Shown: positions 10,636 through 15,689 of the stretch, one piece after another
Numbering within the stretch: the first letter of the stretch is position 1
Layout: each line of letters starts with the position of its first letter
DNA from: Caulobacter sp. 602-2
GTDB lineage: Bacteria; Pseudomonadota; Alphaproteobacteria; Caulobacterales; Caulobacteraceae
NCBI RefSeq assembly: GCF_011043625.1
Contig: NZ_JAAKGT010000002.1
Location: 1 to 64,000 of the forward strand
Reading direction: 5' to 3'
DNA length: 64,000 bases
Made by a program: the position numbers and the translations under genes
Notes under the pieces: model-generated
The model's input: only the letters and a program-made list of their open reading frames with translations
What the model was told of the DNA's origin: nothing
Databases searched by the model: none

Positions 10636-11298
10636 GTGGGAGAGGCCAGCCTCCATCCCACCCGCCAGCGGATGCTCGACGTCTTCGGCGTCGAGCGCCT
10701 GCACGACTTCCGGGGGCCGGCCTGGACGCGGATCGAACTGATCCCCGACGCCACGGCCCCCGACCGTCTTCCCCAGCCCTTCACCGCCTCCGCCCGCCTC
10801 CTGCGCGAGCTCGACACCGCCCGCGCGGTCGTCGCCGCCATGTTCGGCCGATCCGAGCGCGTGACCCTGGAGCTGGGCTGGAGCTCCCACGAAAAGCCGC
10901 CGTTCAAGCGCCTGTCGCACCTGGGCTTCGACCTGCCGCGCGATCCGGCCTGGCGCCTGCGCCCCGATCCGCAGGACGCGCCCGACTGGTGGTGGAACCT
11001 CGCCTATGTCGAGACGCCCGCCGCCGCCGACGCCCTGGCCCCCTTCCTGCTGGCCGCGGTCGGCGGCTTCCAGAAGCGCGGCCTGATCAACCTGTCGGTC
11101 GGGATCGTCGACTTCGAGACGGGCCTGGCCCTTGAGTTCTACGACGCCAAGGGCATGACCCCCATGGCCGTCACGCCCGAGCGCCTGGCGCCGGTCTACT
11201 GGCGGTTCCGCGACTGGGTGCGCGACGTCGAGATCGAGCGCTGCGACGCCCTGCTGGCGCCCTGGCGGGACGCCGCGCCCCGCCTGACCGTGGTCTGA
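10636..11298 (+). CDS. DUF3885-like protein
   Basis: The 220-residue protein probably starts with GTG at 10636, eight bases after the purS stop. The C-terminus LEFYDAKGMTPMA, then VYWRFRDWVRD and a terminal charged helix, matches the pattern of DUF3885: a YDDRG-type strand and a DW motif. The middle holds a Trp-rich PDWWWNLAYVE segment. It appears soluble and cytosolic. The family is uncharacterised; some members lie in toxin/immunity loci, but nothing here shows that. It is probably co-transcribed with purS. Confidence 0.65.
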   Translation: MGEASLHPTRQRMLDVFGVERLHDFRGPAWTRIELIPDATAPDRLPQPFTASARLLRELDTARAVVAAMFGRSERVTLELGWSSHEKPPFKRLSHLGFDLPRDPAWRLRPDPQDAPDWWWNLAYVETPAAADALAPFLLAAVGGFQKRGLINLSVGIVDFETGLALEFYDAKGMTPMAVTPERLAPVYWRFRDWVRDVEIERCDALLAPWRDAAPRLTVV

Positions 11299-11437: not shown

Positions 11438-11938
11438 ATGTGCCCAGACCCCGCCCGCCCGGAGCCCTGCTCGGCCACGCCGCTGCGGGCGACCCTGCCG
11501 CAGCTGATCGGCTGCGGGCTGGGCCTGGCCCTGGGTCTGGCGGTCGACTGGGCCAATGGCGCGGGCGCGATGCTCGCGGGTCTCTGCACGCGCTCGGGCG
11601 GCTATGGGCCGGCCTTCATGGCGATCTGCGAGCTGGGACATCTGGGCATGGTCGTCGGGGCGCTGGCGGGTTGCTGCGCCAGCCTGGCCCGACAGGCGCC
11701 GTGGCGAGCCGAGGCCCCGGCGCGCGACCGCGTCCTGCTGGCCTCGGGACTGGCGCTGGGCGGCATGCTGCTGGCGATGGCGGGCCTGAGCGCCCTCCCT
11801 GCCTGGGGCGGCGAAAGCCTGGGCGCGACGCTCGCGGCGATGCTGGCGGCCATGGTCGCGGGACACGGGCTGGGCCTGCTGGCGCACGGATGGATTTCTA
11901 GCGGCGCCGCGCGCGCGCGACACGGGGGACGGGCGTGA
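11438..11938 (+). CDS. Four-helix membrane protein at head of tyrosinase cluster
   Basis: The 166-residue protein has about four membrane segments (roughly 20-38, 58-82, 99-121, 128-150). His68, His143, His150, several Met and a Cys-Cys pair (79-80) lie in or near them. The family is not recognised. Its TGA overlaps the ATG of the tyrosinase gene by one base (TGATG at 11936-11940), so the two are translationally coupled. A role in metal handling or in positioning the enzyme is an inference from context only. The ATG at 11438 has a weak ribosome site. Confidence 0.62.
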   Translation: MCPDPARPEPCSATPLRATLPQLIGCGLGLALGLAVDWANGAGAMLAGLCTRSGGYGPAFMAICELGHLGMVVGALAGCCASLARQAPWRAEAPARDRVLLASGLALGGMLLAMAGLSALPAWGGESLGATLAAMLAAMVAGHGLGLLAHGWISSGAARARHGGRA

Positions 11939-13185
11939 TGCGTGTGGAGATCGACATCGAGGGCGAGCTGCCCGACGGCCGGGTGTTCCTGACCTGGGCC
12001 CCCGTCAAGGCGACCGCGCGGGTGATCGACGGCGGCGCGGGCGGCGACGTGGACGTCCTGCTCGAGAACGGCGGCTCGGCCGGCGGCGGCAAGGTGGTGT
12101 TCGACACCAAGCGCCGCCACGACGGCGATCCGAGCCTTCGCCTGCGCCTGCCGCGCAACGGAACGCCCGTCGCGTTCTGGGTGGCCGGCGAGTTCGGCGA
12201 ACCCAGCAAGAGCTACGGCGACGCCGGCATCAAGGCCAGCGTCGGCGGCGCGGTCGTCGGCACGACGCCGCTGATGGTGCGCATCCGCAAGGACGCTCAG
12301 ACCCTGACCGAGGCCGAACGCGACCGCTTCCTGGTGGCGCTGGCCCGGCTGAACGACGCCGGCGCGGGCCCCTTCCGGGCGTTCCGCGACATGCACACCA
12401 ACCTCTCCAGCCGCGAGGCCCACGGCGGCCCCGGCTTCCTGTCCTGGCACCGCTCGTACCTGCTGGACCTCGAGCGCGAACTGCAGGCCATCGACCCGAG
12501 CGTGGCCCTGCCCTACTGGCGCTTCGACAAGCCCGCGCCCAACATCTTCGACTCGCACTTCCTGAGCATGCCGGCGGCCTCGCCGACGGCCGGCGACCTG
12601 GTGCGATTTCCGCCCGGCCATCCGCTGGAGCACTGGTCGACCGACAGCTTCACCGGCGTGATGCGGCGGCCCAACTTCGACGTCAGCGCCGCCCCGCCGT
12701 CGCGCCGCGCCGGCCGCGCCTACGTGCTGACCGAGCGCGAGACCCTCGACCTGGGGGTCACCTTCCGCCAGCTGCGGGCGATGGAAAGCGCCCCGCACGG
12801 GCCGGCCCACGTCAGCTTCTCGGGCTTCATCAGCTCGATCCCAACCGCGGCGAAAGACCCGCTGTTCTTCCTGCTGCACGGCAATGTCGACCGGCTGTGG
12901 GCCAAGTGGCAGTGGGCCAACCGGCGCTTCGACACGGCCGATCCGGACGCCTTCCAGGCCGGCGGCCCGCTCGGCCACCGGCTGCCCGACACCATGTGGC
13001 CCTGGAACGGCGTCACCGGCGGCGAGCGCCCGCCCACGGCGCCGGGCGGGCCGCTGAAGGACTCGCCCGTGACCCGGCAGCCCGGCCCCAAGCCCACCGT
13101 GGGCGTCATGCTCGACTACCTCGGCGTCAGGAGCGGCCTGGACCAGGGCTTCGCCTATGACGACGTCCCCTTCGAAGCCGCCTGA
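11938..13185 (+). CDS. Tyrosinase (type-3 copper phenol oxidase) with N-terminal beta domain
   Basis: The 415-residue protein has all six copper ligands of the tyrosinase family. CuA is His153, His162 and His171, the last two in HGGPGFLSWHRSYLLDLERE (162-181). CuB is His287 and His291 in APHGPAHV and His314 in DPLFFLLHGNVD. Enzymes with this centre hydroxylate monophenols or oxidise catechols with O2. Residues 1-115 are an extra strand-rich domain that starts EIDIEGELPDGRVFL and is not part of a classic tyrosinase; it may bind a partner or serve as a built-in caddie. No signal peptide is seen. It is translationally coupled to the membrane protein before it; the HEAT protein follows after 15 bases. 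Confidence 0.9.
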   Translation: MRVEIDIEGELPDGRVFLTWAPVKATARVIDGGAGGDVDVLLENGGSAGGGKVVFDTKRRHDGDPSLRLRLPRNGTPVAFWVAGEFGEPSKSYGDAGIKASVGGAVVGTTPLMVRIRKDAQTLTEAERDRFLVALARLNDAGAGPFRAFRDMHTNLSSREAHGGPGFLSWHRSYLLDLERELQAIDPSVALPYWRFDKPAPNIFDSHFLSMPAASPTAGDLVRFPPGHPLEHWSTDSFTGVMRRPNFDVSAAPPSRRAGRAYVLTERETLDLGVTFRQLRAMESAPHGPAHVSFSGFISSIPTAAKDPLFFLLHGNVDRLWAKWQWANRRFDTADPDAFQAGGPLGHRLPDTMWPWNGVTGGERPPTAPGGPLKDSPVTRQPGPKPTVGVMLDYLGVRSGLDQGFAYDDVPFEAA

Positions 13186-13200
13186 CGCGGGAGCCAGACG

Positions 13201-14028
13201 ATGAAGGCCAGTGACTATCGCCGGCAGTACGAGGCCCAGCTCGCCGCCTCGTCCTCGTTCACCGACGGCCTGCGCGCCGCCGCCGCGCCCGAGATCGACG
13301 CCGAGGACGACATCCCTTCCCTGCTGGCCATCGCCGCCGACAAGACCGCCTCGGAGGACGATCGCCAGGCAGCGCTGGAGCAGGTGCACGCCGCCACCTT
13401 CCTTGGCCAGGCGTTCGACGGCCATCGCGCCGAGTATCTGGCGGCGCTGCGCAAGCTGATCACCGACGACGCGCCGGCCCTGCGGCGCCTGGCGCTGGAA
13501 TGGCTGAGCGCGGTCAAGGACGACGTCGCCCAGAAGGCCCTGGCCGAGGGCCTGAAGAACCCGGCCAAGGCGCTGGTCTCGGCGGCCAACGCGCTGGAGT
13601 TCCTCAGCCTCGACGAGCACAGCGCCGTGACCCCGCTGGCCCGGCTGGTGCTGGAGCGCGACAAGGACCTGGAGACCAGGGTCGCGGCCCTGCGCACCCT
13701 GACCGCCGACCCGAACGCGGCCGACCTGTTCGAGCGCTTCATGCGCGACAAGGACGAGTTCAAGGAAGTGCGCCAGATCAGCGCCGTCGGCCTGCAGAAG
13801 CTGAACGAGAACCTGTTCCAGAAGGTGGCCCAGCAGATCGCCGTCGACGACCACGACTTCGACGACATCAGGGCCACCGCCCTGAACGGCCTGGCGCGCA
13901 GCCCGATCGCCGAGCAGTTGCTGAGCAATCCGGCCGTGCGGGCCTCGGCCAAGGCGATCGGCGAGAAGCTGTCCTCGAACGCCTTCTCGGCCCTGCTCTC
14001 GCGCATCAGGCCCGGGTCGGACGCCTGA
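13201..14028 (+). CDS. HEAT-like helical-repeat protein of tyrosinase cluster
   Basis: The 275-residue protein is almost wholly alpha-helical. It shows repeated helix pairs of about 30-40 residues with the pattern of HEAT-like repeats, for example ALRRLALEWLSAVKDD, ALVSAANALEFLSLDE and RVAALRTLTADPNA. Such solenoids act as binding scaffolds. There is no signal peptide. It lies 15 bases after the tyrosinase gene and one base before the next gene, so it is part of the operon. An assembly or chaperone role for the copper enzyme is inferred. Confidence 0.75.
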   Translation: MKASDYRRQYEAQLAASSSFTDGLRAAAAPEIDAEDDIPSLLAIAADKTASEDDRQAALEQVHAATFLGQAFDGHRAEYLAALRKLITDDAPALRRLALEWLSAVKDDVAQKALAEGLKNPAKALVSAANALEFLSLDEHSAVTPLARLVLERDKDLETRVAALRTLTADPNAADLFERFMRDKDEFKEVRQISAVGLQKLNENLFQKVAQQIAVDDHDFDDIRATALNGLARSPIAEQLLSNPAVRASAKAIGEKLSSNAFSALLSRIRPGSDA

Positions 14029-14029
14029 G

Positions 14030-15127
14030 ATGCCCGCCGGGGCCACGATCGACGCCACGGCGCCGGCCGACGAACGGCAGGCGGCCATCGACCTAGCCCT
14101 CGCCGGCCCGGACGCGTCGGCGGCCCTGACCCGGCTGCTGGCCGAGGACGGACCGCTCTATCGCGACCTGGGCGCGTCGGAGGCCGAACGCCTGCGCGGA
14201 CGGGTGCTGGCGGGCTTCGCGGTCGCCGGCCTGCCGCCGGCCGCCCTGCCCCAGGTGCTGGCCGAGCTGGAGACGGGGCTGAACCCCCAGGTGGTGGCCG
14301 GAGCCGCCCTGGCGCTGGCGGGAACCACCTCGCCGCCGATCGAGGCTCTGGACCTGCTAGCGGCCGCCGCCCTGCGCATCCGGCCGGTCGACGACCTGAC
14401 GGCGCTGGGCGCGGGTCCGCCCGCCAGCGCGGCCGCGCAGGTCGTGCGCGCCATGGCCGGCTACGGTCCGCCGGCCGCCTCGCGACTGCGGGTTCTGCGG
14501 GCCGAAGGCGGCTGGTCGGCGGCGGTGACCACCGCTCTCTCCGAAGCCATCGCCACGGCCGAAGCCGCCGCGCCGAAAGGCTGCTGCGGCGGACGGTCCG
14601 GCGCCGTCCCCGCCGCACCCGCCGTCACGCCCGGAGCCGTCGACGACGTGCAGATCCAGGACCAGACGGGCGCGGTGATGCGCTTTGGCGACCTGTTCGC
14701 CGGCCGGCCGGCGGCCATCGCCTTCTTCTACACGCGGTGCATGAACCCGCAGAAATGCTCGCTGACCATCTCGCGCCTGGCGACCGTGAAGGCGCGGCTG
14801 AGGGCGGCGGGACTGGACGAGCAGGCCAGCGTGGCGGCCTTCACCTACGACCCCGCCTATGACACCCCGCGCCATCTGGAGACCTACGGCCGCGACCGCG
14901 ACTTCCCGTTCGACGCCCGCTGCCGGCTGCTGCGCACCACCGGACCACTGGAACCGCTGCAGGCCCATTTCGAGCTCGGCGTCGGCTTTGGCCCGGCCAC
15001 GGTCAACCAGCACCGCATCGACCTGGCCGTGATCGACGCTGCGGGCCGCATCGCGCTCAGCCACGCCCACCGGCTGTGGGACGACGGCGAGGTGTTCGAG
15101 ACGCTGGCCGGGCTGATCCGCGCCTGA
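14030..15127 (+). CDS. HEAT-like / Sco1-SenC-like fusion, putative copper chaperone
   Basis: The 365-residue protein has two parts. Residues 1-180 are Ala/Leu-rich helices resembling the HEAT protein encoded just before. After a linker with a Cys185-Cys186 pair, residues 200-365 form a thioredoxin-fold domain like Sco1/SenC: strands IAFFYTRC, Cys237 and Cys243, and the distal His328 in VNQHRIDL, the three copper-ligand positions of Sco proteins. The cysteines are spaced CX5C instead of the usual CX3C. It probably delivers or loads copper onto the neighbouring tyrosinase. It starts one base after the preceding stop. No export signal is seen, unlike classic Sco1. Confidence 0.75.
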   Translation: MPAGATIDATAPADERQAAIDLALAGPDASAALTRLLAEDGPLYRDLGASEAERLRGRVLAGFAVAGLPPAALPQVLAELETGLNPQVVAGAALALAGTTSPPIEALDLLAAAALRIRPVDDLTALGAGPPASAAAQVVRAMAGYGPPAASRLRVLRAEGGWSAAVTTALSEAIATAEAAAPKGCCGGRSGAVPAAPAVTPGAVDDVQIQDQTGAVMRFGDLFAGRPAAIAFFYTRCMNPQKCSLTISRLATVKARLRAAGLDEQASVAAFTYDPAYDTPRHLETYGRDRDFPFDARCRLLRTTGPLEPLQAHFELGVGFGPATVNQHRIDLAVIDAAGRIALSHAHRLWDDGEVFETLAGLIRA

Positions 15128-15203
15128 CCCCTCTTTCGAGGCGCCCCTTTCGGAACCACCGGGCGGCGCCTACCTCCAGGACAAGCACAACCGGGAGGAC
15201 GTC

Positions 15204-15689
15204 ATGGCGGCATTCGAGCTGGCCCAGGTCAATATCGGCCGGCTGAAGGCGCCGATCGACCATCCGTCGATCAAGGACTTCGCCGACAACCTCGACCGCA
15301 TCAACCTGCTGGCCGAGGGCTCGCCCGGGTTCGTGTGGCGGCTGAAGGGCGACGGCGGCAACGCCACCGACCTGCCCATCGGCGGCGACCCGCTGCTGAT
15401 CCCCAACCTGTCGACCTGGACCGACATCCCGTCGCTGGGCGCCTATGTCTATCGCTCGGCCCATGTCGTGATCATGCGCCGCCGCCGCGAATGGTTCGAG
15501 CCGGCCGAGGGGCCGCACATGGCCCTGTGGTGGGTTCCCGCCGGCCATCGCCCCACCGTCGAGGAGGCGATGGAGAAGCTGGCCCTGCTGGCCGCCCACG
15601 GCCCGACGCCCGCAGCCTTCACCTTCCGCCAGCCCTTCCCGGCCCCGGCCGGCGAGGCGGTCGGGCCCGTGCTGGACGAATGCGCGTGA
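15204..15689 (+). CDS. DUF3291 family protein
   Basis: The 161-residue protein starts MAAFELAQVNIGRLKAPIDH and has DNLDRINLLAEGSPGFVWRL, the conserved opening of DUF3291, a predicted dimeric alpha+beta barrel. YVYRSAHVVIMRRRREWF and HMALWWVPAGHRPT are the other conserved blocks. Related folds include small oxygenases and heme-binding proteins, but no activity is known. GGGAGG at 15191-15196 lies ahead of the ATG. It is 76 bases past the Sco-like gene and may be the last member of that cluster. Confidence 0.8.
   Translation: MAAFELAQVNIGRLKAPIDHPSIKDFADNLDRINLLAEGSPGFVWRLKGDGGNATDLPIGGDPLLIPNLSTWTDIPSLGAYVYRSAHVVIMRRRREWFEPAEGPHMALWWVPAGHRPTVEEAMEKLALLAAHGPTPAAFTFRQPFPAPAGEAVGPVLDECA

Follow-up and report, generated by a model that had tools for sequence, protein, structure and literature searches.

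How does a tyrosinase without an export signal acquire its copper, and do the genes beside it take part? The question is raised by a group of genes in Caulobacter sp. 602-2 (assembly GCF_011043625.1, contig NZ_JAAKGT010000002.1), lying within positions 1–64,000 of the forward strand; this whole stretch of 64,000 nucleotides is called the window below. The group includes three consecutive genes at positions 11938–15127 that encode a tyrosinase, a HEAT-repeat protein and a fusion of a helical solenoid with a Sco-like domain. The best explanation of this trio, judging from sequence comparison, is a mobile, self-contained tyrosinase module. We assign a probability of roughly 0.7 to the reading that it is a Sco-type module dedicated to loading copper into a tyrosinase that is probably cytosolic, with the HEAT protein as its scaffold; copper transfer is the part that we infer.

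The leading evidence is the recurrence of the trio. Six aligned fusions, used as the query against 84,980 species genomes, yielded 33 loci; one of these (L059) seems to come from the same contig as L029 of genome G149. As the search pattern [AT]FFYT[RT]C[MD] was fixed, conservation of these residues is built into the set and the number of loci is a lower bound; on the neighbouring genes the pattern is silent. With the fusion as bait, the tyrosinase and HEAT genes are found upstream of it, in the same order and on the same strand, in all 33 loci, and the three genes mostly overlap or are separated by a few bases. The loci span four phyla, the Pseudomonadota (Alpha- and Betaproteobacteria), the Actinomycetota (Pseudonocardia, Agromyces, Geodermatophilus, Microbacterium), the Acidobacteriota and the Bacteroidota (Pedobacter, Filimonas and Olivibacter among others). 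The preliminary description of this DNA, made from the sequence of the window, had set co-occurrence in other genomes as its own test; the trio passes it strongly, and the claim that the tyrosinase, its HEAT partner and the Sco-type fusion are one functional unit is upheld by the same 33 loci.

The tyrosinase query was also run on 289 genomes of the host class and on plasmids. Full-length relatives occur in six plasmid records, from Rhizobium gallicum (two records), Rhizobium sp. CIAT894, Paraburkholderia caribensis and Bradyrhizobium barranii (two records), and all six carry an SCO-family gene. Four distinct plasmid loci were read, and in each the tyrosinase gene is followed by those of a HEAT-type protein and an SCO family protein, in this order. 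The fusion query matched six of 72,556 plasmid records, the same six as above. On two conjugative plasmids of Rhizobium the trio is flanked by a large DEAD/DEAH helicase gene, which lies upstream of it on one and downstream on the other (L025:2070-5096, L026:9514-12444). In the close relative G438 the whole operon is situated at the same site as in the window genome. The ratios of nonsynonymous to synonymous substitution rates between the two are 0.16 for the tyrosinase, 0.23 for the HEAT protein, 0.32 for the fusion and 0.40 for a membrane protein gene preceding the trio, and therefore all four genes are maintained by purifying selection. No shared pathway partner was found among 94 open reading frames (ORFs) neighbouring the trio, which match 103 Pfam families, each in at most two members. 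A role in a defence island or against phages was considered and rejected, the PADLOC matches among the same neighbours being scattered, again each in at most two members, and a search of viral contigs giving no relative. In the open-access literature searched, we found no description of the arrangement of tyrosinase, HEAT protein and Sco fusion.

The three proteins seem to have a common history. Their pairwise distance matrices correlate with r of 0.87, 0.77 and 0.87 (permutation maximum 0.29), and their trees share clades, including one in which Microbacterium is nested within an alphaproteobacterial group. This placement is best read as a transfer of the whole block between phyla. In Desertivirga and Daejeonella (L062, L064) each of the three proteins begins with a signal peptide, and those of the other trio loci lack one, as judged by hydrophobicity, the start codons in GC-rich loci being unsure. 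The window proteins, as had been proposed, carry no export signals by the same measure of their N-termini. The module appears to be cytosolic in most lineages and exported whole in one Bacteroidota group. Sequence comparison demonstrates that the trio evolves together and changes its predicted compartment together. In Daejeonella oryzae (L064:43-5614) three tandem tyrosinase genes precede a single pair of HEAT and Sco genes.

The window tyrosinase has 415 residues and no signal peptide. Its six copper-binding His (H153, H162, H171, H287, H291, H314), recognised already in the preliminary description, are conserved in all 37–38 homologues that have sequence there. This, the match to PF00264 above the cut-off and the Foldseek matches of a homologue model to tyrosinases place the protein in that family. 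The residue following the first His of the CuB site (HisB1+1) is Gly in 34 of 38 tyrosinases, and the waterkeeper (HisB1-4) is Glu in 29, the window protein included, and Gln in nine. In tyrosinases Asn is common at HisB1+1, while Gly together with Gln is observed in a fungal catechol oxidase (PMC8049008). These residues weakly favour diphenol oxidation over monophenol hydroxylation as the activity; since most members keep the Glu waterkeeper, the choice between mono- and diphenolase activity is not firmly predictable. The N-terminal domain, about residues 1–113, is a nine-strand beta-sandwich in the model of a homologue and has no sequence relative in a comparison with the PDB. The window tyrosinase lacks Cys altogether, as do several others in the set, and the window HEAT protein is also free of Cys. 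A second tyrosinase, with a Tat-like leader, is encoded elsewhere in this genome (L114:2652-4409, contig C29, about 62651-64408, minus strand; RRDLMAGGAAIVGAMAAGQALA). No trio partners are recognised among the ORFs adjoining it, and it may serve as a useful internal control.

The HEAT protein matches PF13646 above the cut-off, its profile matches in the PDB are HEAT and alphaRep proteins, and D138 and H140 are conserved. In three Bacteroidota, Olivibacter, Ferruginibacter and Pedobacter (L045, L048, L053), the tyrosinase and HEAT protein are encoded by a single ORF. The model of the Olivibacter fusion, informed by only three fused rows, has a mean predicted local distance difference test score (pLDDT) of 85 and a predicted template modelling score of 0.84, with the HEAT part forming a helical array, and suggests that the two proteins are held in a defined arrangement. 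A similar fusion in Agromyces (L046) was rejected, as the tyrosinase match spans three frames and reflects frameshifts. In genome G185 (L030:5065-9130) a cytochrome c-like gene is followed by genes for a tyrosinase and a HEAT-like protein, each of which has a signal-like N-terminus, and there is no Sco gene. The pair of tyrosinase and HEAT protein may predate the trio, or G185 may use another copper source.

The third protein has an unusual composition. Its AlphaFold2 model, built with 34 homologues (pLDDT 88.5), consists of a nine-helix solenoid at residues 13–179, a disordered linker and a thioredoxin-like domain at residues 208–364. The first half had been called HEAT-like, which holds only for the shape in the model: it shows no detectable sequence relation to the HEAT protein (hhalign probability 0.3%), and Pfam does not match it in the window protein, with a weak HEAT match in one homologue (E 0.012). 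The top Foldseek matches of the second half are a Streptomyces Sco, an SCO1/SenC lipoprotein, an Aquifex protein, BsSco and ScoI, followed by human SCO1 among others, and the lower-ranked ones are peroxiredoxins and ResA/TlpA-type proteins. These structures and the PF02630 match assign the domain to the Sco/SenC fold. The residues C237, C243 and H328, pointed out in the preliminary description, are indeed present and, together with D278, invariant in 38 of 38 homologues. The published copper site of Sco proteins is CXXXCXnH (PMC9145763). The distal His of this site is kept in all 38 fusions, and the spacing differs in all of them: the fusions have FFYTRC-MNPxK-C, that is C-x5-C, while canonical Sco proteins of the same bacterial family have FGYTYCPDVCP, that is C-x3-C. 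The linker commonly contains a Cys pair, C185 and C186, the latter in 31 of 38 homologues. The window protein and most homologues have no N-terminal hydrophobic segment that could provide a single periplasmic or lipid anchor. About a third of the systems, 13 fusions from Betaproteobacteria, Acidobacteriota and Bacteroidota, have in addition a C-terminal multi-helix membrane domain with an invariant PKCPxC in the first helix. It matched no Pfam or other known family and is possibly a metal-handling membrane domain.

Table 1. Genes of the tyrosinase operon and its surroundings in the window, and distribution of the additional C-terminal domain of the fusions
Feature	Position or loci	Strand	Placement	Basis
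DUF3885-family gene	about 10660-11298		between purS and the operon	ORF and Pfam
Four-helix membrane protein, 166 residues	11438-11938	+	translationally coupled to the tyrosinase	ORF
Tyrosinase / type-3 copper oxidase, 415 residues	11938-13185	+		PF00264, 3.6e-30
HEAT-repeat protein, 275 residues	13201-14028	+		PF13646 HEAT_2, 1.7e-8
Solenoid-Sco fusion	14030-15127	+		PF02630 SCO1-SenC, 7.7e-10
DUF3291 gene	15204-15689	+		Pfam DUF3291, 1.2e-58
C-terminal PKCPxC domain	L027, L036, L038, L040-L045, L048, L049, L053, L054		fusion C-terminus	

The five same-strand ORFs described earlier are where they had been placed: the membrane gene overlaps the tyrosinase by one base, and the following gaps are 15, 1 and 76 bases, so that the first four overlap or are at most 15 bases apart. 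The block lies among purine genes, and the earlier list missed the DUF3885 gene between it and purS; this gene and the DUF3291 gene are both in the purine cluster. Scans of the operon region for promoters, terminators and Rfam families gave nothing useful. The two outer genes had been counted as members of the system, which the comparison does not support. The membrane protein matches no Pfam or NCBIfam family. Among 61 same-genus genomes its gene has a strong match only in two close ones (G000 and G438), and the 38 other trio loci have no homologue. As it accompanies the trio only in the window genome and one close relative among the genomes searched, it was rejected as a general component and is an optional local addition to the operon. 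The DUF3291 gene is an old neighbour of purQ that lies outside the system, as it adjoins purQ in many same-genus genomes that have no trio.

In known Sco proteins the copper ligands are two Cys and a distal His (PMC7558416, PMC9145763). In the proposed mechanism the Sco domain of the fusion would bind copper, as Cu(I) if the module is cytosolic, via C237, C243 and H328, the metal being possibly first taken up by the Cys-Cys linker. The Sco domain would be positioned by the solenoid together with the HEAT protein, the latter being docked on the enzyme; copper would pass to the two three-His sites (CuA and CuB) of the tyrosinase, and the loaded enzyme would oxidise diphenols, or phenols, to quinones. 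One may speculate that the PKCPxC domain, or the membrane gene of the window, ties the loading to the membrane as the copper source. Taken separately, there is an even chance that a Sco-type chaperone, through a new C-x5-C...H site, delivers copper in the cytosol to a type-3 copper enzyme.

Several observations weigh against copper loading. The C-x5-C spacing in place of C-x3-C means that copper binding cannot be assumed, and a thiol oxidoreductase activity is also possible for Sco proteins (PMC7558416). Docking of the HEAT protein on the tyrosinase is drawn from three fused sequences and one model, and the cytosolic location from the absence of signal peptides as judged by hydrophobicity, not by a dedicated predictor. 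Finally, G185 has a tyrosinase and a HEAT-like protein with no Sco gene, and therefore Sco is not universal for the wider subfamily. The altered spacing, the thioredoxin fold and the lower-ranked structural matches would fit a thiol redox protein instead of a copper donor. Such a protein might convert tyrosinase from the met (Cu(II)2) state into the Cu(I)2 state that binds oxygen, hold copper in its reduced state, or clear the quinones or peroxide that the enzyme produces. Sco proteins have also been linked to oxidative stress defence (PMC6307045), in addition to the oxidoreductase activity cited above. However, the best structural matches are Sco chaperones and not peroxiredoxins, the distal metal-ligand His is invariant, and neither the window tyrosinase nor its HEAT partner has a Cys to reduce or oxidise, which speaks against a disulfide role of Sco, or its usual alternative role of reducing target thiols (PMC7558416), towards either of them. 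The Cys-free partners leave room for a role of Sco in reducing copper itself. On balance, we consider a thiol redox function unlikely.

Two other explanations concern the association of the genes. HEAT repeats are generic protein-binding scaffolds, and the HEAT protein and the fusion might bring a protein or small-molecule substrate to the enzyme, with the Sco-like domain as a secondary metal or redox module. The direct fusions of HEAT protein and tyrosinase and the Sco-less pair of G185 agree with such a scaffold; the neighbourhoods, though, offer no further conserved gene as a candidate for the substrate or for a partner in the pathway, and we regard this as improbable. That the genes are unrelated and adjoin by chance in the window genome might be argued from the neighbouring genes, which differ everywhere, and from the position of the block among purine genes. 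The same order in 33 of 33 loci in four phyla, the gene fusions, the co-evolution and the shared compartment have already refuted it, and its likelihood is next to nil. A Sco-type copper-loading module is the reading that we prefer.

The Sco chaperones known so far serve CuA centres outside the cytosol, and the general view is that bacteria keep their copper enzymes out of that compartment. The well-described copper routes of tyrosinases are caddie proteins and C-terminal shielding domains, while some enzymes need no known helper. If the preferred reading is true, a Sco-type module would be another copper route, alternative to the caddies; Sco function would extend beyond CuA centres, and copper supply would be regulated for an enzyme seemingly working in the cytosol. 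With a three-gene module present in four phyla and on conjugative plasmids, tyrosinase copper supply and cytosolic copper enzymes become testable questions.

The trio may be compared with several known systems. As in Streptomyces MelC1-MelC2 (PDB 1wx2), the tyrosinase is encoded together with a dedicated helper, for which copper supply is inferred in our case, but there is no MelC1-like protein, the helpers being the solenoid-Sco fusion and the HEAT protein. The operon proteins have no match to PF06236 (MelC1); a genome-wide search with this family gave no match either, its controls likewise remaining without a match. The window tyrosinase (P0002) reaches 82.5 bits, where the cut-off for MelC2 is 450. 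The preliminary statement that known bacterial tyrosinases use caddies is true in part, and does not apply to the enzymes of Bacillus megaterium and Verrucomicrobium, which have none (PMC10526336). The tyrosinases of Verrucomicrobium, Burkholderia and plants, with a C-terminal shielding domain, and of Bacillus megaterium, with no helper, share the type-3 copper site and the catalytic-domain fold with the window protein, which differs in having no C-terminal domain and an extra N-terminal beta-sandwich; a Cys-His thioether is impossible in it, as it contains no Cys. Aspergillus oryzae catechol oxidase (PDB 4J3P) resembles the family in the Gly at HisB1+1 and, for a minority of members, in the Gln waterkeeper (PMC8049008), whereas most members, the window protein among them, keep Glu. 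With the Sco/SenC chaperones (Bradyrhizobium ScoI, human SCO1, BsSco) the fusion has in common the thioredoxin fold, the two Cys and the distal His. It differs from them in the C-x5-C spacing, in the helical solenoid, in the lack, in most members, of a single N-terminal anchor or lipoprotein signal, and in its gene partner, which is a tyrosinase and not a CuA oxidase.

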